From contig JAFXQI010000026.1 of the NCBI GenBank assembly GCA_017527155.1, positions 64,883 to 127,883 of the forward strand: a stretch of 63,001 nucleotides of DNA, given 5' to 3'. The notes under the pieces are model-generated. The model was not told where the DNA came from. It searched no databases and was given only the letters and a program-made list of their open reading frames with translations. Position 1 is the first letter of the stretch, and each line of letters begins with the position of its first letter. Positions 930 to 21,942 of the stretch are shown here, piece after piece. Origin of the DNA: Kiritimatiellia bacterium (GTDB lineage Bacteria; Verrucomicrobiota; Kiritimatiellia; CAIQIC01; Lenti-01). The translations under genes were made by a program, and so were the position numbers.

Positions 930-2243
930 TCAGATTTTGCGGAGGTCGCGGACGCGGACGGCTTTGCCGAGGGTGCGCTCGATGCTGCCGGGTTCGCAGA
1001 GTTTGACCTTGGCACCGACGTTCAGGACGGTCTTGAGCCGGTGCTGGAGGTCGGCGCGCAGGGCTTCGAGGGTCTTGATCTTGTCGGTGAAGGCATCGTT
1101 GCCGATCTCGATCTGGATTTCCATGGTGTCGAGGTTGCCCTGGCGGTCGACCGTGATGAGGTACTGCGGGAGGACGCCCTTGACGCGCACCAGGACATCT
1201 TCGATCTGCGACGGGAAGACGTTGACGCCGCGGATGATGAGCATGTCGTCGGTGCGGCCCATCAGGCGCGCGATGCGGCGGGTGGTACGGCCGCAGGGGC
1301 AGGCGTCGGGCAGGATGCAGGTGATGTCGCGCGTGCGGTAGCGGAGAAGGGGCTGGCCGTACTTGGAAAGGCAGGTGATGACGAGTTCGCCTTTTTCGCC
1401 GTCGGGGAGCGGCGCGCCGGTTTCGGGGTCGATGATTTCGGGATAGAAATGGTCTTCGCAGAAGTGGAGGCCGCTCTGCTGGGTGCATTCGCCGGCGACG
1501 CCGGGGCCCGCGACTTCGGAAAGGCCGTAGATGTCGTAGGCTTTCAGGGGGAGGACTTCTTCGATGTGCTTGCGCATCGCCTCGGTCCAGGGCTCGGCGC
1601 CGAAGTGGCCCGCGCGCAGCTTGAGGGAGTGCATGTCGACGCCCATCGCGGCTCCGACTTCGGCGATCTGCAGGGCGTAGGAGGGGGTGCAGCAGAGGGT
1701 CGTGACGCCGAAGTCCTTCATCAGCATCACCTGCTTTTCGGTGTTGCCCGCGGAGGCCGGGACGACCGCCGCGCCCAGGCGCTCGGCCGCGTAGTGCATG
1801 CCGAGGCCGCCCGTGAAGAGGCCGTAGCCGTAGGAGACCTGCACGATGGACTCGGGCGTGCTGCCGGCGCGCTCGAGGGCCCGGGCCGCGCATTCGGCCC
1901 AGACGTCGAGGTCGCCCTGCGTGCTCGCCGCGACGGTCGGCTTGCCGGTGGTGCCGGAGGAGGCGTGGATGCGCACGATGTCGCGCAGGGGCGTGCCCAG
2001 CATGCCGAAGGGGTACTGGTCGCGGAAGTCTTTCTTGACCGTGAAGGGCAGCTTGGCGAGGTCGGCGATGTCCCGGATGTCGTCGGGGCGGACGCCGGCT
2101 TCGTCCATGCGCTGGCGGTAGAAGGGGACGTGGTCGTAGGCGTGGCGAACGACGGCGCGGAGGCGCTCGCCTTGCAGCGCGCGCAGCTCGGCGCGGGGCA
2201 GGGTCTCGGCCCAGGAAAGGGGTTTGGCGGTTGGGGTGGTCAT
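930..2243 (-). CDS. Phenylacetate-CoA ligase family (adenylate-forming) enzyme
   Basis: The 437-aa product matches the usual PaaK length. It shows the adenylate-forming core: the P-loop-like HASSGTTGKPT near residue 95, YGLSE around 235, and a C-terminal lobe with GRTDDMLIIRGVNVFPSQIE. Family members activate phenylacetate or other aryl acids to CoA thioesters through an acyl-AMP. The start is the ATG at 2243 (MTTPTAKPLSWAE); an upstream in-frame extension is basic and proline-rich and lies in the regulatory region. It is followed by the ACT-domain gene, probably as one operon. Many anaerobe homologues are annotated PaaK without a known substrate, so the exact acid is uncertain. Confidence 0.92.
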   Translation of the reverse strand: MTTPTAKPLSWAETLPRAELRALQGERLRAVVRHAYDHVPFYRQRMDEAGVRPDDIRDIADLAKLPFTVKKDFRDQYPFGMLGTPLRDIVRIHASSGTTGKPTVAASTQGDLDVWAECAARALERAGSTPESIVQVSYGYGLFTGGLGMHYAAERLGAAVVPASAGNTEKQVMLMKDFGVTTLCCTPSYALQIAEVGAAMGVDMHSLKLRAGHFGAEPWTEAMRKHIEEVLPLKAYDIYGLSEVAGPGVAGECTQQSGLHFCEDHFYPEIIDPETGAPLPDGEKGELVITCLSKYGQPLLRYRTRDITCILPDACPCGRTTRRIARLMGRTDDMLIIRGVNVFPSQIEDVLVRVKGVLPQYLITVDRQGNLDTMEIQIEIGNDAFTDKIKTLEALRADLQHRLKTVLNVGAKVKLCEPGSIERTLGKAVRVRDLRKI

Positions 2244-2331
2244 GGAAGGTTCCTTTGGGATGGGGGACGGGATGCGTCCCGGAGTCAGGCGCGGAATATG
2301 CACGATTCCGCGGCGGCGCACAACAGATTTT

Positions 2332-2430
2332 TCAAGGCGGTGGAGTTCGGCGGCACGGGATTGCGTTCATGGAGGGGAGAATGGGGGAAAACCGCATGAA
2401 ACGTCAATGTTTTCCGTGTTCTCAAATGAC
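2332..2430 (-). promoter_or_regulatory. Leaderless-promoter-like element with 12-codon ORF, upstream of the CoA ligase
   Basis: On the minus strand TTGACG (2402-2407) is 18 nt from CATTCT (2378-2383), which is 7 nt from an ATG at 2370. The ATG opens a 12-residue ORF (MNAIPCRRTPPP) stopping at 2332. A flanking GAGAACACGGAAAA block precedes the -35. Geometry is identical to the copy at 10121-10213. If the boxes work, transcription would begin at or near this ATG and run into the ligase gene, making the ORF a possible leader peptide. Confidence 0.55.
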
Positions 2431-2470
2431 AAAGCCGGGACGGGCGCCAGGAGGGGGAGAGGGGGCCGGA

Positions 2471-3214
2471 TCAGCGGCGGGGGGTGCCGGCGGACGGCTG
2501 GGAGGCGAGGAGTTCGGTCTCGCTCGCGAGGAGGATGCGGTGGAGTTCCTTGGGGTCGTCGGTCTCGCGCATTTCCATGAGGAGGCTCGTCCGGTGGCAC
2601 ATCATGCACAGGCGCGCGAGGACATGCAGGTGGATGCGGTCGTCCTGGCAGCACACCAGGAAGAAGATGTCCGTCGTGGACCGGTCGGGCGACCCGAACG
2701 GGATCTGCGCGATGGTCTTGCCGACGACGATGAACGAGTCGAAGAACATGTACGGCTCGTGCACCCGCGGATGCAGCAGCGCGAGCCCGCCGGAGAGCGC
2801 CGTCGAACACAGCTTTTCGCGCTCGGTCAGGCTGTCGAGGAGTTCCTTGCGGTCGCCCACGAGTTCGGTGGAATCGGCCAGGGTCGCCATCTCGTCGAGT
2901 ACCGACGCCTTGGTCCGGCACGCCAGCGCGGGGGCGATCCACTCCGGGCGCACGAGGGACGGCATGATCGGCTCGTCCGCGGACACTTCGCGGCGGGCGG
3001 AACCGCTGCGGCGGTGGAAGGCTTCCAGGCGCTGGTCGTCGAGATGCAGGACGCGGTCGGACGCCCATTCGTCGATGTCGTGGTGCCGGAAGTGCAGGTG
3101 GCCGCCCTGGCGCAGGCAGGGGATTTCGCCGCGGCGGGCGAGTTCCTCCAGCGCCTTCTCCTGCATGCTGAGGTATTCGGCGGCTTCGGCCAGGTTGAAC
3201 ACGCGGAAAGGCAT
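2471..3214 (-). CDS. HTH - PTS EIIA (PtsN-like) fusion protein
   Basis: The product is 247 aa. Residues about 1-60 form an excisionase/MerR-type helix-turn-helix (FNLAEAAEYLSMQEKALEELA, then GEIPCLRQGGHLHFRHHDIDEW). Residues about 95-235 match the EIIA domain of the fructose/PtsN class, with LALLHPRVHEPY where PtsN carries GVAIPHGR, so a candidate phospho-His is present though the glycines are not. PtsN-type EIIA proteins are usually regulators rather than transporters. The fusion to a DNA-binding module suggests a phosphorylation-controlled regulator. The start overlaps nothing, and the downstream gene on this strand is separated by the element at 2332-2430. Confidence 0.85.
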   Translation of the reverse strand: MPFRVFNLAEAAEYLSMQEKALEELARRGEIPCLRQGGHLHFRHHDIDEWASDRVLHLDDQRLEAFHRRSGSARREVSADEPIMPSLVRPEWIAPALACRTKASVLDEMATLADSTELVGDRKELLDSLTEREKLCSTALSGGLALLHPRVHEPYMFFDSFIVVGKTIAQIPFGSPDRSTTDIFFLVCCQDDRIHLHVLARLCMMCHRTSLLMEMRETDDPKELHRILLASETELLASQPSAGTPRR

Positions 3215-3226
3215 GGCGGCGGCTCC

Positions 3227-3643
3227 TTACAGCTTGAGAAGGCCCGTGACGTAGCAGAACAGCAGCAGGACGCACGCCGCGAGCAGGCCCGCGGTGGACT
3301 TCGGGAAGGGGGAGCCGTCCGTGCGGCGGCGCAGGAGCTTCGACGCCATCGCCGCGCCGCCCGCCAGCAGCGTCGCCAGCAGGACCAGCGAGAAGAAGAG
3401 GTGGTTCTTCCAGAGCGTGTCCATCGGCCCCGCGCCGGGCGACCCCGACCCGTGCGCCGCACTCTTGCCCACCAGCGGCAGGATCATGCACAGGAACAGG
3501 AACAGCAGCCCGAAGACGATCGACAGGACGTTGCCGGCGCGCGGCGAAGCCAGGCGCGCGAGGAACGCATCGCGGAAGGAGGGAAGGCGCGCGAGGAACG
3601 CATCGCGGAAGGAGGGAGTCGGGCTGGGAGGGGGCTGTTTCAT
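3227..3643 (-). CDS. Small membrane protein with internal 11-residue duplication
   Basis: The protein is 138 aa from the ATG at 3643 (MKQPPPSPTP). Three hydrophobic segments are visible: about 43-65 (LSIVFGLLFLFLCMILPLV), about 85-103 (FFSLVLLATLLAGGAAM) and about 120-136. The N-terminal tail carries PSFRDAFLARL twice in tandem, encoded by a 33-bp direct duplication. I do not recognise a family. It lies 12 bp upstream of the HTH-EIIA gene on the same strand, so the two are probably co-transcribed. Confidence 0.75.
   Translation of the reverse strand: MKQPPPSPTPSFRDAFLARLPSFRDAFLARLASPRAGNVLSIVFGLLFLFLCMILPLVGKSAAHGSGSPGAGPMDTLWKNHLFFSLVLLATLLAGGAAMASKLLRRRTDGSPFPKSTAGLLAACVLLLFCYVTGLLKL
3553..3618. 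repeat. 33-bp tandem duplication inside a coding region
   Basis: Two adjacent copies of a 33-bp unit (3553-3585 and 3586-3618) are almost identical and preserve the reading frame of the membrane protein. The lack of divergence implies a recent slippage event. Confidence 0.9.
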
Positions 3644-3728
3644 GCTGCCGGGCATTGTTCCCACAACCGGCGCGCGGTTTCAAGCAAAAGCGGCGGGGAA
3701 ATGCGGGGTGGGGCGGGGGGGGGGCGAC

Positions 3729-3812
3729 TGGGGACTTGGCGACTTGCGACTTGCGACTTGGATGGCCCGGAGGGCTGCACAGGCGCCCCCAAGTCGCAAG
3801 TCGCAAGTCCCC
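3729..3812. repeat. Large inverted repeat built of GCGACTT heptamers
   Basis: The left arm (3729-3761) is GGGGACTTG followed by repeated GCGACTT units. The right arm (3789-3812) is CCAAGTCGCAAGTC continuing to CCCC, its reverse complement. Both arms together could form a stem over 20 bp long around a loop of about 27 nt. It lies between divergent genes. Confidence 0.85.
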
Positions 3813-3901
3813 CCGCCCTCCTCCCCCCTGCCCCGTTTTCGGTTTGCGTTCGGGAGGGCGGAACCGTAGGATGGCGCGCGAACCGAAAGGAAACAATTGC
3901 A

Positions 3902-4879
3902 ATGAAGACATTTCTGAAAATCGTGCTGGGACTGGTGATCGTGCTGGCGGTGCTGCTGGGGGCCGCGCTCTTCTCCATGGATTTCGTGCTGCCGAAGGCG
4001 TTCAAAGCGGCCGTTCCCCAGGTGCTCGGCGTCGATGCGTCGATGGAGGGCGCCACGGTACGGCTGCGGCGCGGGTTCGTTTCGCTGCGCGGCCTGCACA
4101 TCGGCAATCCCGAGGGATACAAGACGGACGGCATCTTCGATCTCGGCGAGGCCACCGTGGACCTCGACATGGAATCGCTCGCCTCCGACACGATCGTCAT
4201 CGACCGCATCCTCGTCAACGGCGCCGAAATCACGTACGAACAGGGCCTCCTCGGCAGCAACCTCGGCGCGCTGCTCGACAACCTCTCGAAGGAAGCCGAG
4301 GAAGAGAAGGAAGAGGAGAAAGCCGGGAAAGAGGCCGGCGAAAAGCCCTCCAAGAAGGTCATCATCCGCCAGCTCGACGTCGAAGGCACCCGCCTGAACG
4401 TCGCCATGACCGCGATGATGGGCGCGGCGGTTCCCGTCCCGCTTCCGCCCATCCACATGACCGGCATCGGCGAGGAATCGGGCGGAGCCTCCCCCATCGA
4501 GGCCTTGCAGGCCGTCATCGGCGGCATCTTCCAGGCCGTCAAGGCCGCGGTCGCCGGTGCGGGCGACCTGCTGGCCGGCGCGGCGGGTGCCGTCGCGGAC
4601 GGTGCCAAGGCCACGGCCGGCGCGGTCGCCGACGGTACGGTCGCGGCGGCTGGCGCGGTCGCCGACGGTACGGTCGCGACGGTCGGCGCGGTCGCCGACG
4701 GCGCCACGGCGGTGGGCGGTGCCGTTGCCGACGGCGCCACGGCCACGGTCGGTGCCGTCGCGGACGGCGTGAAGGCGGTGGGTAGCGCCCTGAACCCGTT
4801 CGACGGCGACGACGACAACACCGAAGCCGAGGCCGCGGCCAAGGCTGAAGCCGAGGCCGAAGCGGCCCCGGAGAAGTGA
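3902..4879 (+). CDS. AsmA/DUF748-like envelope protein with GAVADG repeat tail
   Basis: The 325-aa protein begins with a signal-anchor (MKTFLKIVLGLVIVLAVLLGAALF). A beta-rich AsmA-like region follows (DASMEGATVRLRRGFVSLRGLHIGNPEGY, then FDLGEATVDLDMESLASDTIVIDRILVNGAEI, residues about 40-110), typical of the N-terminus of AsmA/YhdP-type periplasmic proteins involved in lipid or outer-membrane homeostasis. An EEEKEEEK charged linker sits near 135. From about residue 230 there are seven or so copies of (A/G)GAVADG(T/A)xA, then an acidic AEAEAE tail. It is shorter than typical AsmA, so function is inferred only from the N-terminal part. Confidence 0.8.
   Translation: MKTFLKIVLGLVIVLAVLLGAALFSMDFVLPKAFKAAVPQVLGVDASMEGATVRLRRGFVSLRGLHIGNPEGYKTDGIFDLGEATVDLDMESLASDTIVIDRILVNGAEITYEQGLLGSNLGALLDNLSKEAEEEKEEEKAGKEAGEKPSKKVIIRQLDVEGTRLNVAMTAMMGAAVPVPLPPIHMTGIGEESGGASPIEALQAVIGGIFQAVKAAVAGAGDLLAGAAGAVADGAKATAGAVADGTVAAAGAVADGTVATVGAVADGATAVGGAVADGATATVGAVADGVKAVGSALNPFDGDDDNTEAEAAAKAEAEAEAAPEK
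4590..4775 (+). repeat. Coding minisatellite (GAVADG repeats)
   Basis: Imperfect ~36-bp units encode GAVADGTVAAA-like segments about seven times. The units differ mainly at synonymous or Thr/Ala positions. Copy number is probably variable between strains. Confidence 0.85.
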
Positions 4880-4898
4880 CCTCCACCCCCGGCGTCCC

Positions 4899-5570
4899 AT
4901 GGCCTACGAGCCCTCCAAGTACACGCTGGGCGAGGAAATCGCCAATGCCGTGAGCCACGGCATCGGCGCCGCCCTCGCCATCGCGGGGCTCGCCGTCATG
5001 ACCGTCGCCGCCGCGCGCCACGGGGCGGGGCGCGTGGTGCCGTGCGTGATCTACGCGAGCTTCATGGTGCTGATGTTCATCGTCAGCACCCTCTACCACA
5101 GCCTTACGCCGCCGCTCGCCAAGCGGGTGTTCCGGGTGCTGGACCACGAGATGATCTTCCTGATGATCGCCGGCTCCTACACCCCCATGATGCTGCTGGG
5201 ACTCGGCGGCGCGTGGGGATGGTCGCTCTTCGGCGTGGTGTGGGGGCTCGCGGTCGCGGGTCTGGTTTTCCAGGGCGTCTTCACGGGGCGGTTCAAGGTG
5301 GCGTCGACGATCATCTACGTGCTGATGGGGTGGGTCGTCGTCATCGCGTTCAAGCCGCTGGTGGAGCGGGTCCCGGCGGCGGGCGTGCGGTGGCTGTGGA
5401 TCGGCGGGCTGTGCTACACGCTCGGGGCCCTCGTCTACCTCTTCAAGAAGATCCGCTACCACCATGCCGTGTGGCATCTGGCCGTGCTGGCCGGCGCGAC
5501 GTGCCACTACTTCGCCATCCTGTGGTACGTGCTGCCGCCCGAGGCCGGCGCGGGAGTCCCCGCCCCGTGA
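4899..5570 (+). CDS. Hemolysin III / PAQR-family membrane protein
   Basis: The 223-aa, seven-helix protein has the family signature: an N-terminal EEIANAVSHGIGAALAI, STLYHSL after helix 2, RVLDHEMIFLMIAGSYTP, and a C-terminal HHAVWHLAVLAGATCHYFAI. The conserved Ser, Asp and three His that form the metal-dependent hydrolase site of PAQR proteins are present. Bacterial members are thought to act on membrane lipids; the haemolysin name is historical. It starts 19 bp after the AsmA-like gene and its stop overlaps the GTG of the next gene, so the three are likely one operon. Confidence 0.93.
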   Translation: MAYEPSKYTLGEEIANAVSHGIGAALAIAGLAVMTVAAARHGAGRVVPCVIYASFMVLMFIVSTLYHSLTPPLAKRVFRVLDHEMIFLMIAGSYTPMMLLGLGGAWGWSLFGVVWGLAVAGLVFQGVFTGRFKVASTIIYVLMGWVVVIAFKPLVERVPAAGVRWLWIGGLCYTLGALVYLFKKIRYHHAVWHLAVLAGATCHYFAILWYVLPPEAGAGVPAP

Positions 5571-10251: not shown

Positions 10252-12834
<2,583 letters not shown>

Positions 12835-15800
12835 AATGTGATTTGATGCTCTTTGAGAATGGGATACACTCGGTGCCTGGAACGCCCACGTCGAATTCGT
12901 GTTGTGATTTGATGCTCTTTGAGAATGGGATACACTCAAACGGGCAAAGCCCAATATCCCTTTTTGTTGTGATTTGATGCTCTTTGAGAATGGGATACAC
13001 TCCTTGACGGTGCGGGGCCGTCGCCCGTTCGTTGTGATTTGATGCTCTTTGAGAATGGGATACACTGGACGGCGTCCTTGGAGAGTTTGGCGTACGTTGT
13101 GATTTGATGCTCTTTGAGAATGGGATACACTACCACCCCGAAAGGGCGTCGTGTTCTGCGGTTGTGATTTGATGCTCTTTGAGAATGGGATACACTAATG
13201 GTCCGCTCCTCCGTGTACGTCGCGTTGTTGTGATTTGATGCTCTTTGAGAATGGGATACACTTTTTCTTCACGGCGCCCCAGACCCATACGGGTTGTGAT
13301 TTGATGCTCTTTGAGAATGGGATACACTCGGCGAAGGCTGCGGAGAGGTCGGCGATGAGTTGTGATTTGATGCTCTTTGAGAATGGGATACACTTTCAGC
13401 ATCCGCAACCGCCTGTACGAGTGGGTTGTGATTTGATGCTCTTTGAGAATGGGATACACTACAAAGCCGCAAAACGCATCACGAATCGTGTTGTGATTTG
13501 ATGCTCTTTGAGAATGGGATACACTGGGCTCCCGTGCGATGCACAGATGCGGTCGTTGTGATTTGATGCTCTTTGAGAATGGGATACACTCCCAAGGATG
13601 AAATGCCCCATCTGCCACGTGTTGTGATTTGATGCTCTTTGAGAATGGGATACACTTGGGTGTGGCTAATATGTTCCGATTCATTGTTGTGATTTGATGC
13701 TCTTTGAGAATGGGATACACTCGGTTTCCATAGCATCATCCCAAAGTGCCGTTGTGATTTGATGCTCTTTGAGAATGGGATACACTAAGGACAAGCGACA
13801 TGACCCAAAAGCTCAGTTGTGATTTGATGCTCTTTGAGAATGGGATACACTTCAGGCCGCACCTCGCTTGAAAGCCTTGTAGTTGTGATTTGATGCTCTT
13901 TGAGAATGGGATACACTGTCCCCCACCGTCACCACCCGCTGGATATTGTTGTGATTTGATGCTCTTTGAGAATGGGATACACTGCCCGCCCTTCAACCCC
14001 CGCGCCTTTGTTGTTGTGATTTGATGCTCTTTGAGAATGGGATACACTCGATGGCACATCCGGTAAAGACCTTCGATACGTTGTGATTTGATGCTCTTTG
14101 AGAATGGGATACACTTCATCCTGACGATCCAATCCTACAAGATGGGTTGTGATTTGATGCTCTTTGAGAATGGGATACACTCGCCTCCGGGCGGCTCCCT
14201 TTTTGCGTCCGGTTGTGATTTGATGCTCTTTGAGAATGGGATACACTAAAGACGGCCTCCGATTCCGGCGAAGACCCGTTGTGATTTGATGCTCTTTGAG
14301 AATGGGATACACTGGCATTTGCGCCGAATTGGCCGTCGTTATGTTGTGATTTGATGCTCTTTGAGAATGGGATACACTGAGCGGTTCGCCGCGCTGGTTG
14401 CAGAAGCGGTTGTGATTTGATGCTCTTTGAGAATGGGATACACTCGGGGGGAGTCTCGCCGGGCGCGGGCCAGGTTGTGATTTGATGCTCTTTGAGAATG
14501 GGATACACTGGTTGACGCCCCCACAATGCCATTGTGCCAGTTGTGATTTGATGCTCTTTGAGAATGGGATACACTGTCGGCATGTCCTTCTCCATGGATG
14601 CCCTCGTTGTGATTTGATGCTCTTTGAGAATGGGATACACTTGGCCGCCAAACTGGCCGCGCTGTCGGAAAGTTGTGATTTGATGCTCTTTGAGAATGGG
14701 ATACACTTGTTCTTTCGCTTCTTCTTTCATCTCACCGGTTGTGATTTGATGCTCTTTGAGAATGGGATACACTCATCCACACCTGCGGCGAGTGCCTGTC
14801 CTGTTGTGATTTGATGCTCTTTGAGAATGGGATACACTCACGTTGTCATTCCGGCACACCGTCACCGTGTTGTGATTTGATGCTCTTTGAGAATGGGATA
14901 CACTCTTCCATGCGTCCGGGTATTTCCTGCGCGGTTGTGATTTGATGCTCTTTGAGAATGGGATACACTGCACGCGTGGAAACCCGCTTCGCAGACCTGT
15001 TGTGATTTGATGCTCTTTGAGAATGGGATACACTGGAAGTGCGGGCATGGTCGGCAACTCCCTTGTTGTGATTTGATGCTCTTTGAGAATGGGATACACT
15101 TCAAGCCGCCCCGCGCTTGAACGCCTTGTAGTTGTGATTTGATGCTCTTTGAGAATGGGATACACTCTCTGGCAGTTCGGCTTGGAGACCCAGCAGTTGT
15201 GATTTGATGCTCTTTGAGAATGGGATACACTCCACGCCATGATTTGCCAGCCCGTCATCATGTTGTGATTTGATGCTCTTTGAGAATGGGATACACTCCC
15301 GCGCCGGTCGCGGCAATGGGTGCAGGCGTTGTGATTTGATGCTCTTTGAGAATGGGATACACTGACCCACTCCGTGCAGGGCTTCGTTCCACGGTTGTGA
15401 TTTGATGCTCTTTGAGAATGGGATACACTTCAAGCGCCTCGGTGACGGCCTGGTGCTGCGTTGTGATTTGATGCTCTTTGAGAATGGGATACACTCCTGC
15501 TACCTCCACCGCAACACCATCGACTGTTGTGATTTGATGCTCTTTGAGAATGGGATACACTCCACCCGCCGGAAGCCCTCTCGCGTGTAGTGTTGTGATT
15601 TGATGCTCTTTGAGAATGGGATACACTGTGCGCGCTGCGGGACAGGTACATGTTCATGTTGTGATTTGATGCTCTTTGAGAATGGGATACACTACGCTGA
15701 GGCGCTGGCGGGCGTTCGCTCCGGTTGTGATTTGATGCTCTTTGAGAATGGGATACACTTACTCCCCATACTCGATGTGGAAGTTGTCGTTGTGATTTGA

Positions 15801-16151
15801 TGCTCTTTGAGAATGGGATACACTGGACGCTTCCTCGACGGAATCCGGATTCTGTTGTGATTTGATGCTCTTTGAGAATGGGATACACTTTTCGTGTCGC
15901 AACGTCTCCCGCTTGTAGCGTTGTGATTTGATGCTCTTTGAGAATGGGATACACTCCCCTCCCGGTGCGCGTGCTTCCACTTCCAGTTGTGATTTGATGC
16001 TCTTTGAGAATGGGATACACTAGCCTGACGAACATCGTGCACGCGGGGAGGTTGTGATTTGATGCTCTTTGAGAATGGGATACACTCACGTTCCAGCGAG
16101 CATGATACCCGAGCGGTTGTGATTTGATGCTCTTTGAGAATGGGATACACT
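12835..16151 (+). CRISPR. Type II-C CRISPR array, 51 repeats and 50 spacers
   Basis: By hand count there are 51 copies of a 36-bp repeat that begins GTTGTGATTTG and ends GGGATACACT, spaced by 29-31-bp spacers (mostly 29 or 30). All repeats look identical except the first (12835-12870), which begins AAT instead of GTT. A degenerate repeat at the 5' end and an array pointing against the cas operon are features described for II-C loci. The plus strand is the likely crRNA sense because the 5' part of the repeat pairs with the anti-repeat at 21208-21236. Within each repeat TTGATG (repeat positions 9-14) and TACACT (31-36) are 16 bp apart, resembling the repeat-borne promoters of Neisseria II-C arrays. 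Confidence 0.99.
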
Positions 16152-16249
16152 ATTGGATACACAATCCTTTATTGCATACCATGTTACGTTCTCATTGAAT
16201 GAAGAAAAATACAGGCAGGCGGCCTTCGTCAAGGTCGATGCAGGAGAAA
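16152..16249. other. AT-richer spacer between array and cas2
   Basis: This 98-bp stretch is less GC-rich than its surroundings. It starts with ATTGGATACACAA, an echo of the repeat terminus GGGATACACT, and may be a decayed half-repeat or an integration-anchoring site. A 62-codon ORF at 16153 shows no family features and is not called. Confidence 0.5.
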
Positions 16250-16555
16250 TCAAAAGAGTTCGAGCTGCGCGGGGGTGGGCGGAGCAGGCTTCTGCTTCCT
16301 TCCTTGCAGGTGGATGGTCTCGCCGAACTGCTTGTCGGTGACCTTGAGGACGGAGATGAAACCTTCATCGGGGATGAAGGAGCGAATACGCCGGACGTGG
16401 ACGGCCGCGGATTCGAGGGAGGCGCAATGCCGGATGTACACGGAGAACTGGAGCATGGAAAAGCCGTCTTTCAGGAGGTCTTTCCGGAAGCGGGTTGCCG
16501 CCTTGCGTTGTGCCGAAGTCTCCACTGGAAGGTCGAACATGACGTAGAGCCACAT
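16250..16555 (-). CDS. cas2: CRISPR-associated endonuclease Cas2
   Basis: The 101-aa product starts MWLYVMFDLPVET, the Cas2 ferredoxin-fold beta-1 strand with the conserved Asp at residue 8. It continues through RKAATRFRKDLLKDGFSMLQFSVYIRHC, GFISVLKVTDKQF and a short C-terminal tail ending PAQLELF. Cas2 is the structural core of the Cas1-Cas2 spacer integrase. An in-frame extension to 16717 overlaps cas1 and lacks homology, so I chose the ATG at 16555. It is the last gene of the cas operon and is adjacent to the array. Confidence 0.96.
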   Translation of the reverse strand: MWLYVMFDLPVETSAQRKAATRFRKDLLKDGFSMLQFSVYIRHCASLESAAVHVRRIRSFIPDEGFISVLKVTDKQFGETIHLQGRKQKPAPPTPAQLELF

Positions 16556-16590
16556 GATGGAATAGGCATTGAGGGCGTTGTGGGATGGGG

Positions 16591-17493
16591 TCACGGGAGA
16601 AATGACGGCAGGAGGAGATCCGGGGATTTTTCGAGGTAGCACCTGGCCAACGAAGCGGAGGTGGAGGTCAGGGCGATCATCAGGGGGCGCGTGAGTCCGC
16701 CGATGGTCACATCGCACGTCAGGCAGGAGAGGAGGCGGGCCTTGGCGGCCTTGTCCAACAGATGTCCAAGGGCGGATTCCGACACGGGAAAGTCGCCGAA
16801 CACGAACTGGTCGACGAAGGGGCGGTAGGCTTCCATCACGTCATCGGCCAGGCAAAAGGCGTTGTAGCGGTTGTGGTGGTGGATGCCGTGGAAACAGACG
16901 AGCCCGGAGCCGACAAGGGCCCGCGCGGTGGCAGCACGGAGGACTGCATAGCCGTAATCGAGAGCGGCATTGGGCCATCCTTCGCCGGGATTGCGCCGGA
17001 AGTCCGGCTCGGGGGCCAGCGCGCGGAAGTACAGCCTGGCGCCCTGGGCTTCGCAGTTGGCGGGGTCATCGTTGCGGACGGCCTCCGCCAAGCGTCCGAG
17101 CTGCTGGGCCTCCGGCCTGCCGAGGGATTCGAGCAAGGCGGCCTGGTTCCGCAATTTGGCCTGGACGATGCGCCGCCACAACCGGCCTTGCGCGGCCGGG
17201 GTGGCCGCCAGTTGGGCCTCGGCGGTTTCGTGGGTCGTGGAGTTCGCCGCAAAAGGCAACAACTGGGCGAGAGGGGTGTGGGCCGGGTCGCACACCACGA
17301 CGGCCACGTTCTCCGCCGCCAAGGTCTGGAGGCACGCGGAGGTCACGAGGATGCGGCCGGTTTCAAGGATGACGAAGCCCAAGTCCTCGACGGGGAACGT
17401 CCGGTGGAGGCCGTCTTCCCCGTCATAGACCAGTTGCCGGTCGCGGATGGAGAGTTTGCCGGGGGAACCGAAGGACAGGGTTTTCGCTATCAT
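16591..17493 (-). CDS. cas1: CRISPR-associated integrase Cas1 (type II)
   Basis: The 300-aa product begins MIAKTLSFGSPGKLSIRDRQLV, typical of type II Cas1. It carries the metal-binding residues Glu148 (NCEAQGARLYF), His205 (GIHHHNRYNAFCLADD) and Glu221 (DDVMEAYRPFVD). Cas1 catalyses spacer insertion at the leader-end repeat. The start codon overlaps the cas9 stop as ATGA, so the genes are translationally coupled. Confidence 0.97.
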   Translation of the reverse strand: MIAKTLSFGSPGKLSIRDRQLVYDGEDGLHRTFPVEDLGFVILETGRILVTSACLQTLAAENVAVVVCDPAHTPLAQLLPFAANSTTHETAEAQLAATPAAQGRLWRRIVQAKLRNQAALLESLGRPEAQQLGRLAEAVRNDDPANCEAQGARLYFRALAPEPDFRRNPGEGWPNAALDYGYAVLRAATARALVGSGLVCFHGIHHHNRYNAFCLADDVMEAYRPFVDQFVFGDFPVSESALGHLLDKAAKARLLSCLTCDVTIGGLTRPLMIALTSTSASLARCYLEKSPDLLLPSFLP

Positions 17494-20400
17494 GGATTCC
17501 CGGAATCCATGAAGCGGATGGACCCATCCAGAAGGACCCGGAAATGGATGCCTTCGAATAGGACTTGGTTGCGGTAGGTCGAAGGGCTGATTCTCAACAG
17601 CTCATGCGGAATATTCAGTGAAATAGACGACTCTCCCTTTCCGCGTTTGCCTGCCGCCGACAAAGCCGCCGACAGGACCGTGCTGGGGCGTGCTTCTGCA
17701 TGGAAACGCAAGGTCATCAATCCATTTTTTTCGAATTTGACGACCTTGTAGAGACGATTGCGGAGGCTTGCTGGTGCAAGTGCCTGCAGTTCTCCTGGGT
17801 TGTCCGGGGCATGGACCAAGGCCATGTTGCCGGGCTTGACGTATCCCAGGAATCCCTCCTGTCCGTGCAAGGGGACGTAATCCGGCTTCTTGTGTTCCTG
17901 CGCCCACGAGAGGGAATTGTCGGGGACGACCGAAAAGCGCCCGTTTTTCAGGAACAAGGCCAGCCGGAAGTTGCTGCCTTCGGCAGTCGAGACGTAGTAG
18001 GGCGTCTTGTGCTCCTGCCGGGAAGGCATGGCGTGGTCGCGCAAACGGACTGGGCCGACAGAAGTCAAGGCATACACCCGCACGCGGCGGATGGGAACGC
18101 CGGAAGGCATGGCGATTTCGCCCGCGAGGAAGGCGGTCTTGCCAGAGGCTTCGGCGGATTGGACGGCGGCTTCCACGATGGCGCGGATGGTGGGATCCAC
18201 GATGCTCCCCGCGAGGGCCTTGACGTCGGAGACCTTGCCTTCCAGGGGCTTGCGGACGACGAATTTCTTTTCGTTGCTCCCCGGGACCTGGATGCAACCG
18301 TAGAAGGTGTCCTTGTGGAGGGCGCCGCGCACGGTGTCGCCGCGGGAGAGGACGGCCTTGACGGGTTTGCCGCCGGGGTTGTCCTTGGGCGGGTGGGCCT
18401 TGGCGAGGACGTTGCGCTTGGAACTCTGGCGCAGGGTGGTCTGGCGGAGGATGTGCTTCACGAGGATGCCGTCGGTGGCGCGACGGACGGTCCCGGCGAA
18501 GTCCCGGAAGGGTGGCGGGCAGACGTCGCAGGGGCGGCGTCGGTCGCGTCCGTCGTCCTTGAGGGCGGAACAGATGGCGTTGAAGCGGGCGGGGCTCAGG
18601 GCGGCGATGACCATGGCGTCGGTGGCGTGATGGGTGTGCTCGTTGCGGTCCTTGGCGTCGTCGGTCTGGATGCCCCAGGCCTTGCGGGCGAAGGCGGTGG
18701 CGGTGCCGTTGACGGTGTAGGTGTGCGGGTAGAGGGCCTTGAGGAGGTCGACGGCGTGGCGGGCCATGATGCCGGTATCCACGAGCTGGCGTTTCTTGAA
18801 GCCGGTCAGATCGCCCGTTCCGAACGCGAGCTGTTCGCGGGTGGCGTCAAAGCGGCGCAGTTTGTCGCGCCAGTAGTCGCGCTCGAAGCGCAGGGAGAGG
18901 GCCTTGATGCGGGCGTTGGCGCGGGCCTGGGGGTCGGTGGCGGCACGGGCCTTGCTCTGGGCGGATTTGACGGACTTCTCCAGCTGCTCCAGCTTTTCGC
19001 GCCACGGCTGGAGGCGGAGTTCGATTTCGTCCCAGTTGGGGCAATCGCGCGGGATGTTGCCTTTCTTGGTCTGGCGGTTGTAGGCCATCTCGCAAAGGGT
19101 CTTGTTGGCCAGGGAGTCGTCGCCGGAAAGGCTGCGGGGAACGGTGTGCTCGATGTCGAAGGGGGCGTTCCGCGAGGCGTTCAGCAAATCCGCCAGGGAA
19201 ATGCTCCTGTCGGTGTAGAGGCACTTGCATCCCTGCTCCTGCCAGAGGATGTAGCGGTCGACGAGGTCTTCGGTCGGGGCGGCCCCGGCCGCGGCGATGG
19301 CTTGCCGGGCGTCTTCGCGCTGGTCCTGCCGCTTCTTCTGCCAGGCTTGCCAGGCCTTGCGGGTGGCGTAGTCGTTGACGTTGCGGGCGAGTTCGATGCG
19401 GATGGTGGTGGATGGGTCGATCTTGCCGTGGTCGCCGAGGTAGTTGACGAGGCGGCGGAGGGTGGTCATGGAGCGCTGCACGAGCGGGTTGCGGATCATG
19501 CCCAGCTCGACGCGCGGCAGGCGCGGCTTGGGGAGGGGCGCGCCGCGGGTTTCGGTCTGGGGGACGTAGGGGCTTTCGTCGCGCAGGTAGAGGCGTTTCC
19601 AGTTCGCCTCGTCCACACCGCAGTTTTCCTCCAGCCAGGCGCGCCAGCGGTCCATCAGGGGGACGAGCGGGGCTTCGTCGCGGGGGGCGCCTTCGCGGGT
19701 GCGGTTGGCGCGCTCGCGGCGGTAGGCTTCTTCGATGCCGAGAAGGGCGCGCAGGATGGCGTCCTTGCGGGCGGCGAAGTCCGGGATGATGTCGGCCAGC
19801 TTGGCGAAGAAGCGGGCGTCCGAGAGGACATAGCCGTCCCGGAGGTACGGGAGGATGCGGCGGATCGCCTTCAGGGAATACTGGGCGTTGCCTTCGCGCG
19901 GGCGGAGCTTCAGGAAGCGCTCGGCGGCGTCCGCGGAGAGCCCGGGATGGTGCTTGGCCAGCCAGCCGCGCAGTTTGTCGGTGTCGTCGTAGAAGGTCAG
20001 GGCGTCGAACTCGGCCTGGTAGGAGAACGGATCCGCGCCGTCGCCCTTGCCGAAGATGTCCCCGAGGCGGTGGAGGAGCGTGCAGCTGGGGAGGGTTTCC
20101 TCGTTGCGGTAGTAGTGGAAGCGCAGGTGGTCGCGCTTGAAGCGCGGGTCCTTCTTGAAGAGTTTGGCGATGTCCCCGAACTTGAAGGTCGGCGATGCCT
20201 TCATGAACGCCTTGCGGACAAGCGCCCGGTCCTCCGCGGTCAGCGGATACAGCGGATGGCCCACGGCGTCGCGCCACTCGCCGGCGGCGTCTTCCAGGGT
20301 CAGGTTGTTGATGAACGCCAGCATCCTGAACTCCTCGAAGGCCGGATGCGCGATTTGCGCGCGCGGGCTCTTCGGTTCGAGCGGGCAGGGACCGATGAGG

Positions 20401-21170
20401 TGCGCCTGCGACCGCAGCGGGCGCTGGTCGAAAATCGCCTTGTGCAGGCTCTCGCGGAGCTTCGGGTCGATGGCCGCGCCCTGGGCTTCCATGATGGCGG
20501 CGAATTCCGTTTCGTAGTGCTCGATGCGGCCCGTGTAGCGGGCACGGATGCGGCGCTTGGAGGGCTTGTCCCGGTCCTCTTCGAGGCACTTCCAGAAGTA
20601 CTGCCCCAGCGTCTTGCAGCCTGCGGCCCGGATTTCCGCGGTCAAGGCCTGGATGCCCGTCTTGACCGCCCCCGTTTCGCTCCGGTCGCCGTCGCCGTCC
20701 GCCTCCGCCGCATCCTTGCGGGAACTCTTGAAGCCGCGGCGTTGCGCGAGGTGGTAGAGCGCCCGGCCCAGCACTTCCGGCGCCACCGGCCCGGCCGCCG
20801 CCGCCGCGCGGTCGCAGTAGGGATTGCTCGCGTCGGTCGCCTTCAGCCAGCGGATGAACGCCTGGTTGCCCGTGGGGTAGCGTCCGTGGGCTTTCCAGTC
20901 CGCCAGCTCCTCCTTCGTGATCGGGCACATCCCGTGCTCCAGCAGGACGGAGAGCAGCTTCCACTTGCGGATTTTCCGGTGGAACTTGATGCGGCGGGCC
21001 ATCCGGGCCGCCCGGCGTATGGCGGCGGGCGTCTGCAAGGAATCGTCGGCGGGGTTGATTCCCTCCGGGAAGACCAGCACGCCCGAATCGAGGATGTTCC
21101 CCGTGTCGTTGTCCAGAATCGCCCAACCCAGCGAGTTGGAACCCAAATCCAGCCCCAGCGTTTTCTTCAT
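17490..21170 (-). CDS. cas9: Type II-C CRISPR effector nuclease Cas9
   Basis: The 1226-aa RNA-guided nuclease has an intact catalytic set. RuvC-I is LGLDLGSNSLGWA with Asp8, and an Arg-rich bridge helix (IRRAARMARRIKFHRKIRKW) covers residues about 51-70. RuvC-II is IRIELARNVN with Glu593. The HNH motif is FDIEHTVPRSLSGDDSLANK with His675. RuvC-III is THHATDAMVIA with His848 and Asp851. The C-terminal ~300 residues form the PAM-interacting region. Length is at the upper end for II-C. The start is the ATG at 21170 (MKKTLGLD); the frame stays open upstream but that stretch covers the tracrRNA. There is no cas4 or csn2, so the subtype is II-C. Confidence 0.98.
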   Translation of the reverse strand: MKKTLGLDLGSNSLGWAILDNDTGNILDSGVLVFPEGINPADDSLQTPAAIRRAARMARRIKFHRKIRKWKLLSVLLEHGMCPITKEELADWKAHGRYPTGNQAFIRWLKATDASNPYCDRAAAAAGPVAPEVLGRALYHLAQRRGFKSSRKDAAEADGDGDRSETGAVKTGIQALTAEIRAAGCKTLGQYFWKCLEEDRDKPSKRRIRARYTGRIEHYETEFAAIMEAQGAAIDPKLRESLHKAIFDQRPLRSQAHLIGPCPLEPKSPRAQIAHPAFEEFRMLAFINNLTLEDAAGEWRDAVGHPLYPLTAEDRALVRKAFMKASPTFKFGDIAKLFKKDPRFKRDHLRFHYYRNEETLPSCTLLHRLGDIFGKGDGADPFSYQAEFDALTFYDDTDKLRGWLAKHHPGLSADAAERFLKLRPREGNAQYSLKAIRRILPYLRDGYVLSDARFFAKLADIIPDFAARKDAILRALLGIEEAYRRERANRTREGAPRDEAPLVPLMDRWRAWLEENCGVDEANWKRLYLRDESPYVPQTETRGAPLPKPRLPRVELGMIRNPLVQRSMTTLRRLVNYLGDHGKIDPSTTIRIELARNVNDYATRKAWQAWQKKRQDQREDARQAIAAAGAAPTEDLVDRYILWQEQGCKCLYTDRSISLADLLNASRNAPFDIEHTVPRSLSGDDSLANKTLCEMAYNRQTKKGNIPRDCPNWDEIELRLQPWREKLEQLEKSVKSAQSKARAATDPQARANARIKALSLRFERDYWRDKLRRFDATREQLAFGTGDLTGFKKRQLVDTGIMARHAVDLLKALYPHTYTVNGTATAFARKAWGIQTDDAKDRNEHTHHATDAMVIAALSPARFNAICSALKDDGRDRRRPCDVCPPPFRDFAGTVRRATDGILVKHILRQTTLRQSSKRNVLAKAHPPKDNPGGKPVKAVLSRGDTVRGALHKDTFYGCIQVPGSNEKKFVVRKPLEGKVSDVKALAGSIVDPTIRAIVEAAVQSAEASGKTAFLAGEIAMPSGVPIRRVRVYALTSVGPVRLRDHAMPSRQEHKTPYYVSTAEGSNFRLALFLKNGRFSVVPDNSLSWAQEHKKPDYVPLHGQEGFLGYVKPGNMALVHAPDNPGELQALAPASLRNRLYKVVKFEKNGLMTLRFHAEARPSTVLSAALSAAGKRGKGESSISLNIPHELLRISPSTYRNQVLFEGIHFRVLLDGSIRFMDSGNP

Positions 21171-21187
21171 GTTGACTCCGTTCATCC

Positions 21188-21216
21188 TTGACTTTGGCCC
21201 GTGGAATGTTTCAATG
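21188..21216 (+). promoter_or_regulatory. Possible tracrRNA promoter
   Basis: TTGACT (21188-21193) is about 17 nt from TCAATG (21211-21216). The -10 match is poor. If used, the transcript would start near 21223 and keep only the lower anti-repeat. A longer form including 21208-21222 is equally possible. Confidence 0.3.
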
Positions 21217-21297
21217 GTCCCGCATCTTATCACAACAAGGCTAAATGCCGAAGTCGTTTTAAGACTGGGGTCCGGTTCGCCGGGCCCGCTTTTTTTT
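21208..21297 (+). ncRNA. tracrRNA
   Basis: The transcript is divergent from cas9. Its anti-repeat GCATCTTATCACAAC (21222-21236) complements the 5' end of the CRISPR repeat with a 2-nt internal mismatch (repeat TT against TT), and TTTCAA (21210-21215) can pair with TTGAGA further along the repeat. After AAGG come a nexus hairpin GGC-TAAAT-GCC (21239-21249), a second hairpin AGTC/GACT (21252-21266), and a GC terminator hairpin GGTCCGG-TTCG-CCGGGCC (21269-21286) with eight T (21290-21297). This order is standard for tracrRNAs. The exact 5' end is not determinable here. Confidence 0.93.
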
Positions 21298-21378
21298 GCA
21301 TTCTTCGCCTTCCGATACCAGTCTTTTCTTGCGGTGTGATTTTTTCCGCATGGACGCACCCTCTCTTCCCGGGCGGCG

Positions 21379-21942
21379 TTGTCCGCCCGGCACCCGGAAA
21401 AAGAAGACCTCCTGCGGGCCGCGGGGTTTGCCGCCGGGTGCCTCGGCCTCGCGTACATCACCTGGAAGCCCTACCCGATGGACTACGTCGACGGCCATCT
21501 CCTCGTCGATCCGCGGCGCATGATGGTCGACGGCGACGGCGGCCTCGCCCGCCTGCGCGCGTTTTGCACGGGACGCTTCGCCGAAAAGCGGTGGATCCGC
21601 TTCGACCCGTCGGCGCCCGGCCGGGCGGCGCCGCCGGCCGCGCTGGCCGGGATGGTGCCGCTCTGGTGGATGCTCGCGCATCCGGGCGGACCGCTCCAGG
21701 GGTGGCTGGGGGTCCACTGGGGGAATTTCGCGAGCAAGTTCGCCGTCGTGTTCTTCTGCATCGCCGTGTACCCGGCGGTCCTCAAGGGGCTGGGGAAGGT
21801 GTTGGGGCGCGGGAAGAGGACGGGGCGGCAGGGACGGAAGACGCGGGAGGCTTCGGACGCATTTCGGCTTTCCTTCCGGGGGGGATGTGGCATAGTGGCC
21901 GATGCACGCAAGGTGGAACATGGCGAACTGGTATTACGTTGA
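21379..21942 (+). CDS. Putative membrane protein of unknown function
   Basis: The 187-codon ORF starts with TTG (MSARHPEKEDLLRAAG); the first in-frame ATG is at 21478. Hydrophobic segments lie at about residues 13-28, 90-110 and 120-137. The C-terminal 50 residues are basic and overlap the next gene by 23 bp, so the true end may be degenerate. No family recognised; codon use fits the neighbours. Confidence 0.45.
   Translation: MSARHPEKEDLLRAAGFAAGCLGLAYITWKPYPMDYVDGHLLVDPRRMMVDGDGGLARLRAFCTGRFAEKRWIRFDPSAPGRAAPPAALAGMVPLWWMLAHPGGPLQGWLGVHWGNFASKFAVVFFCIAVYPAVLKGLGKVLGRGKRTGRQGRKTREASDAFRLSFRGGCGIVADARKVEHGELVLR

Follow-up and report, generated by a model that had tools for sequence, protein, structure and literature searches.

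Spacers 16 and 35 of a CRISPR array in the window, the whole 63,001-nucleotide stretch of Kiritimatiellia bacterium DNA analysed here, probably stem from two independent acquisitions at the same site in homologous, diverged coding DNA. Aligned in perfect register, with zero offset, the two spacers share 26 of their 30 bases, and all of their differences are silent in the favoured reading frame. Interpreted in the way that fits best, the pair neatly documents repeated infection and is nothing out of the ordinary.

Likeness and coding signature of the spacer pair

Spacers 16 and 35 differ at positions 4, 10, 13 and 22. With a match scored +1 and a mismatch −2, the pair scores 18, while the runner-up among the 1,225 possible pairings of the 50 spacers reaches 6 and the top pairs of 20 shuffled sets range from 4 to 9. 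When all 67 spacers are compared as peptides in six frames, no second homologous pair emerges. The sequence-only reading had reported this pair, and both its positions and the extent of its agreement were exact on recheck.

On the minus strand, both spacers read YKAFKRGAA followed by a stop. Specifically, the codons are TAC and AAG, GCT in spacer 16 or GCG in spacer 35, TTC and AAG, CGA or CGC, GGT or GGG, GCG in both, GCC or GCT, and the stop codon TGA, so that each of the four differences sits at a fourfold-degenerate third codon position. The earlier claim that the two encode the same peptide on this strand and differ at third codon positions only is thus confirmed by translation. Four random substitutions would lie in phase with each other with P = 0.024, would be synonymous in some frame with P = 0.012, and would all fall on fourfold-degenerate sites of some frame with P = 0.0034 (six frames). 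The coding signature is real, though it rests on merely four changes. The plus-strand frame starting from base 2 has identical wobble columns and reads QAAPRLKAL and QAAPRLNAL, three of the changes being synonymous and the fourth a K/N replacement. Because the minus frame makes all four changes synonymous and ends in a stop in both spacers, it is the better of the two without being exclusive, and is favoured rather than proven.

A type II-C-like CRISPR-Cas9 system

Features of the CRISPR-Cas block are listed by position in the window.

Features of the array, the cas genes and the predicted tracrRNA
Feature	Position	Strand	Description
CRISPR array	12835..16151	+	51 repeats of GTTGTGATTTGATGCTCTTTGAGAATGGGATACACT, 50 spacers of 29–31 nt each
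First repeat	12835..12870	+	only variant repeat (5′ AAT instead of GTT); putative old end of array
Spacer 16	13852..13881	+	putative older copy; reverse complement encodes YKAFKRGAA-stop
Spacer 35	15101..15130	+	putative younger copy; same peptide, 4 synonymous differences from spacer 16
cas2	16250..16555	-	TIGR01573, E 6e-20, ORF residues 55-144; start approximate, ORF open to 16717
cas1, type II family	16591..17493	-	TIGR03639, E 1.2e-70
cas9	17490..21170	-	1226 aa from ATG 21168-21170; TIGR01865, E 1.5e-125; ORF open upstream
Predicted tracrRNA	21222..21296	+	anti-repeat GCATCTTATCACAAC, structured body, G+C hairpin, T-run terminator; upstream of cas9

The cas9 and cas1 genes overlap, the cas2 ORF lies directly next to them, and a short leader-like stretch alone separates cas2 from the array. 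Among the genes adjoining the array, neither csn2 nor cas4 is found beside cas9-cas1-cas2. The solved chains nearest to this Cas9 are Cas9s of 1082–1095 aa, with E values down to 2.3e-32. At −28.5 kcal/mol, the predicted tracrRNA is by a slight margin the best pairing partner of the plus-strand repeat, and it folds with a z of −3.5 relative to shuffled sequences. Furthermore, it recurs upstream of cas9 in a genome of another genus (G002), where the terminator stem carries matched changes. The tracrRNA prediction relies chiefly on this conservation, the margin of the duplex being small. The cas9-cas1-cas2 set without csn2 or cas4 alongside, the 36-nt repeat, the predicted tracrRNA and the deviating, putatively oldest repeat at the 5′ end of the array all resemble type II-C CRISPR-Cas, from which the 50-spacer array departs in nothing beyond the ordinary, and the system can be described as type II-C-like.

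The pairing of the predicted anti-repeat with the plus-strand repeat supports crRNAs running along the plus strand, which would place the PAM 3′ of the protospacer, on the side of the Tyr codon. Counted from that side, the mismatches between spacers 16 and 35 lie at positions 9, 18, 21 and 27. Both spacers are antisense to the inferred gene, so that the coding strand would be targeted, a minority choice for type II systems (PMC8482600). Arrays of type II-C grow at the 3′ end, and their extra, oldest repeat gathers mutations (PMC12080349); growth at the 3′ end is likewise supported by PMC12638026. Since the sole variant repeat of the array is the first one, the left end is probably old, and the analysis supports spacer 35 being younger than spacer 16.

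Search for the source of the pair

We looked for the source in the organism's own genome, about 400 related genomes, GTDB contigs, IMG/VR, and phage and plasmid collections. Degenerate codon patterns were used for IMG/VR, the GTDB contigs and the own and related genomes, while the phage and plasmid collections were searched by BLAST with the array. None of these collections yields a convincing protospacer or a homologous gene end. Specifically, the own genome yields only the array copies at up to three mismatches to the degenerate pattern, and 95 relatives yield no match to spacer 16 or 35 at up to two mismatches; the sole other match in the phylum has three mismatches and encodes a different peptide. 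IMG/VR contains neither KAFKRGAA-stop nor usable variants of it, and the GTDB genome contigs give no source match. BLAST of the array returns nothing from phages and only chance-level matches from plasmids. In addition, an exact search of IMG/VR with the newest spacer of the array gives no match. A phage origin, suggested by what usually fills CRISPR arrays, is plausible.

Two candidate families were rejected. A 180-aa protein encoded on two IMG/VR contigs ends in PWAFKRGAA-stop, but in its family PW[AM]F is conserved in the place of the spacers' YKAF, and we estimate that chance alone would produce roughly one C-terminal match of 7 residues like this. In the other family, an internal YKAFKRGAK is present, and the motif is not at the protein end. 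The AFKRGAA-stop sites of the 180-aa protein lie at 4517-4540 of contig L111 and 4807-4830 of contig L112, and these two members of the family end in this way. The family has relatives in Serratia, Erwinia and Delftia phages, corresponds to PHROG 8313, conserves the PW[AM]F tail, and is presumably cupin-like, as we read its HSHR motif.

Two probable captures of one site

The pair would be accounted for by captures on two occasions from two mobile elements, most likely phages, which are related but diverged and share a protein-coding gene; both times, the spacer would have come from the same site at the 3′ end of that gene. Cas9-guided acquisition of PAM-flanked sites is established for type II-A and is assumed here. 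If Cas9 picks PAM-flanked prespacers, and if the PAM and the gene end are conserved in the element family, the same 30-nt window could be chosen again; the second capture would then have followed infection by a variant matching spacer 16 with four mismatches. A simple birthday estimate, which assumes 10–50 spacers from one element family and 1,250–5,000 PAM sites (an assumed range for a 40-kb genome), gives ~0.01 to 1 expected same-site pairs per array, and therefore no hotspot or priming is needed.

In-array duplication is by far the commonest origin of repeated spacers, accounting for 695 of 805 candidates (86%) in a reconstruction of 24,090 spacers, among which the eight reacquisitions and seven independent insertions show that recapture of an identical spacer is rare (PMC11472070). 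Applied to the present pair, it would mean that a spacer acquired once was copied inside the array and that four point mutations followed. A duplicated spacer is expected to be identical or to carry mutations free of codon structure, whereas here four changes lie within 30 nt against none among 50 repeats (50 of the 51 are identical over 36 nt), and all four are synonymous at fourfold sites, a constraint that spacers do not feel. The identical repeats set an upper 95% bound of ~1/600 changes per site on the mutation rate of the array, at which the probability of at least four changes in a spacer pair is ~4e-6, a rough bound given that repeats are recopied during acquisition. Moreover, the flanks of spacer 16 (spacers 15 and 17) and those of spacer 35 (spacers 34 and 36) have no spacer in common, and 18 spacers lie between the two copies in the present array. 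Because the repeats are undecayed, the differences codon-structured and the neighbouring spacers unshared, two acquisitions explain the pair much better than duplication, which we consider very unlikely. The four synonymous changes further suggest that the templates were diverged homologues. Of the original proposal of independent acquisitions from diverged phage genes, the two captures and the diverged coding homologues are well supported, while the phage source is plausible only, no protospacer having been found in the collections searched. The pair resembles the reacquisition and independent-acquisition classes of SpacerPlacer in that one protospacer position is captured more than once, but those classes count copies treated as the same spacer, and the pair differs by its four synonymous changes.

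Spacer 35 could also have been captured from the very site at which spacer 16 partly recognised a mismatched variant. There are reports of Cas9-dependent priming in type II-A systems (PMC8265633 and works cited there), and three of the four mismatches lie 18–27 nt from the PAM side with one at position 9, a distribution compatible with partial recognition. Primed adaptation in S. pyogenes, S. thermophilus and S. mutans shares with the present case a partly matching spacer that precedes the new one, but it takes other sites of the target, whereas here the same site would have been taken: in type II priming as reported, new spacers are scattered over the target genome, with an enrichment that extends over kilobases and does not single out one protospacer (PMC8265633). 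The suggestion in the sequence-only reading that the second acquisition was primed is accordingly unsupported: in S. mutans, priming increases spacer uptake from other parts of the target genome (PMC8265633) and gives no reason to expect one protospacer twice. Its alternative suggestion, PAM-directed capture at the same spot, is what any Cas9 system would be expected to show. Chance by itself already supplies the number of pairs estimated above, varying with the spacers per element family and the PAM density, and a single pair cannot show enrichment, so that such same-site updating seems about as improbable as duplication. If true, it would let a type II-C system renew an outdated spacer by taking the protospacer again from a diverged variant that had escaped. 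Least probable of the alternatives, by a small margin, is an origin of spacers 16 and 35 in homologues on the host chromosome or on plasmids, and not in phages. Host-like DNA is apparently sampled at times, as spacer 25 in this array matches a gene of the host chromosome, but no such homologue of the pair appears elsewhere in the own genome, in the 95 relatives, or in the plasmid collection at the thresholds and by the array search given above.

Read as two captures, the silent-site-only pair would preserve the trace of two infections by relatives that had diverged, and it suggests that the gene end, and probably the PAM too, stayed in place while the gene drifted. Near-identical spacers in one array are usually taken to be duplications, and the pair provides one clean example to the contrary. 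One pair alone is silent on any special sampling mechanism; a survey of many arrays for codon-structured pairs would make same-site re-sampling measurable.

Spacer 25 and the origin of the cas module

Spacer 25 (14445-14473) matches the host chromosome at 27 of 29 positions (G000:C6:19087-19115) and a congeneric genome (G001) at 28 of 29, within a gene for a 938-aa predicted protein, and is apparently derived from DNA of the host or a relative. Although this is the only match of the array, we did not use it to deduce a PAM because the site is non-identical and self-like.

The segment 16302-21294, containing cas2, cas1, cas9 and the predicted tracrRNA, is 87.7% identical at the DNA level to G002, and the similarity stops at the tracrRNA terminator. 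The two Cas9 proteins are 92% identical, and the best match of LigA in G002 reaches merely 37%, although G002 is 65% complete and this match may be partial or paralogous. No spacers are common to G002 and the array. In the congener G001, whose LigA is 98% identical, neither a Cas9 match nor repeats of this kind are present. Similarity between G001 and the window (~97%) ends at 12449 and resumes at 21858, which leaves a gap (12450-21857) around the CRISPR-Cas block. From these comparisons, the cas module was likely gained by horizontal transfer. In G001, other genes adjoin LigA.
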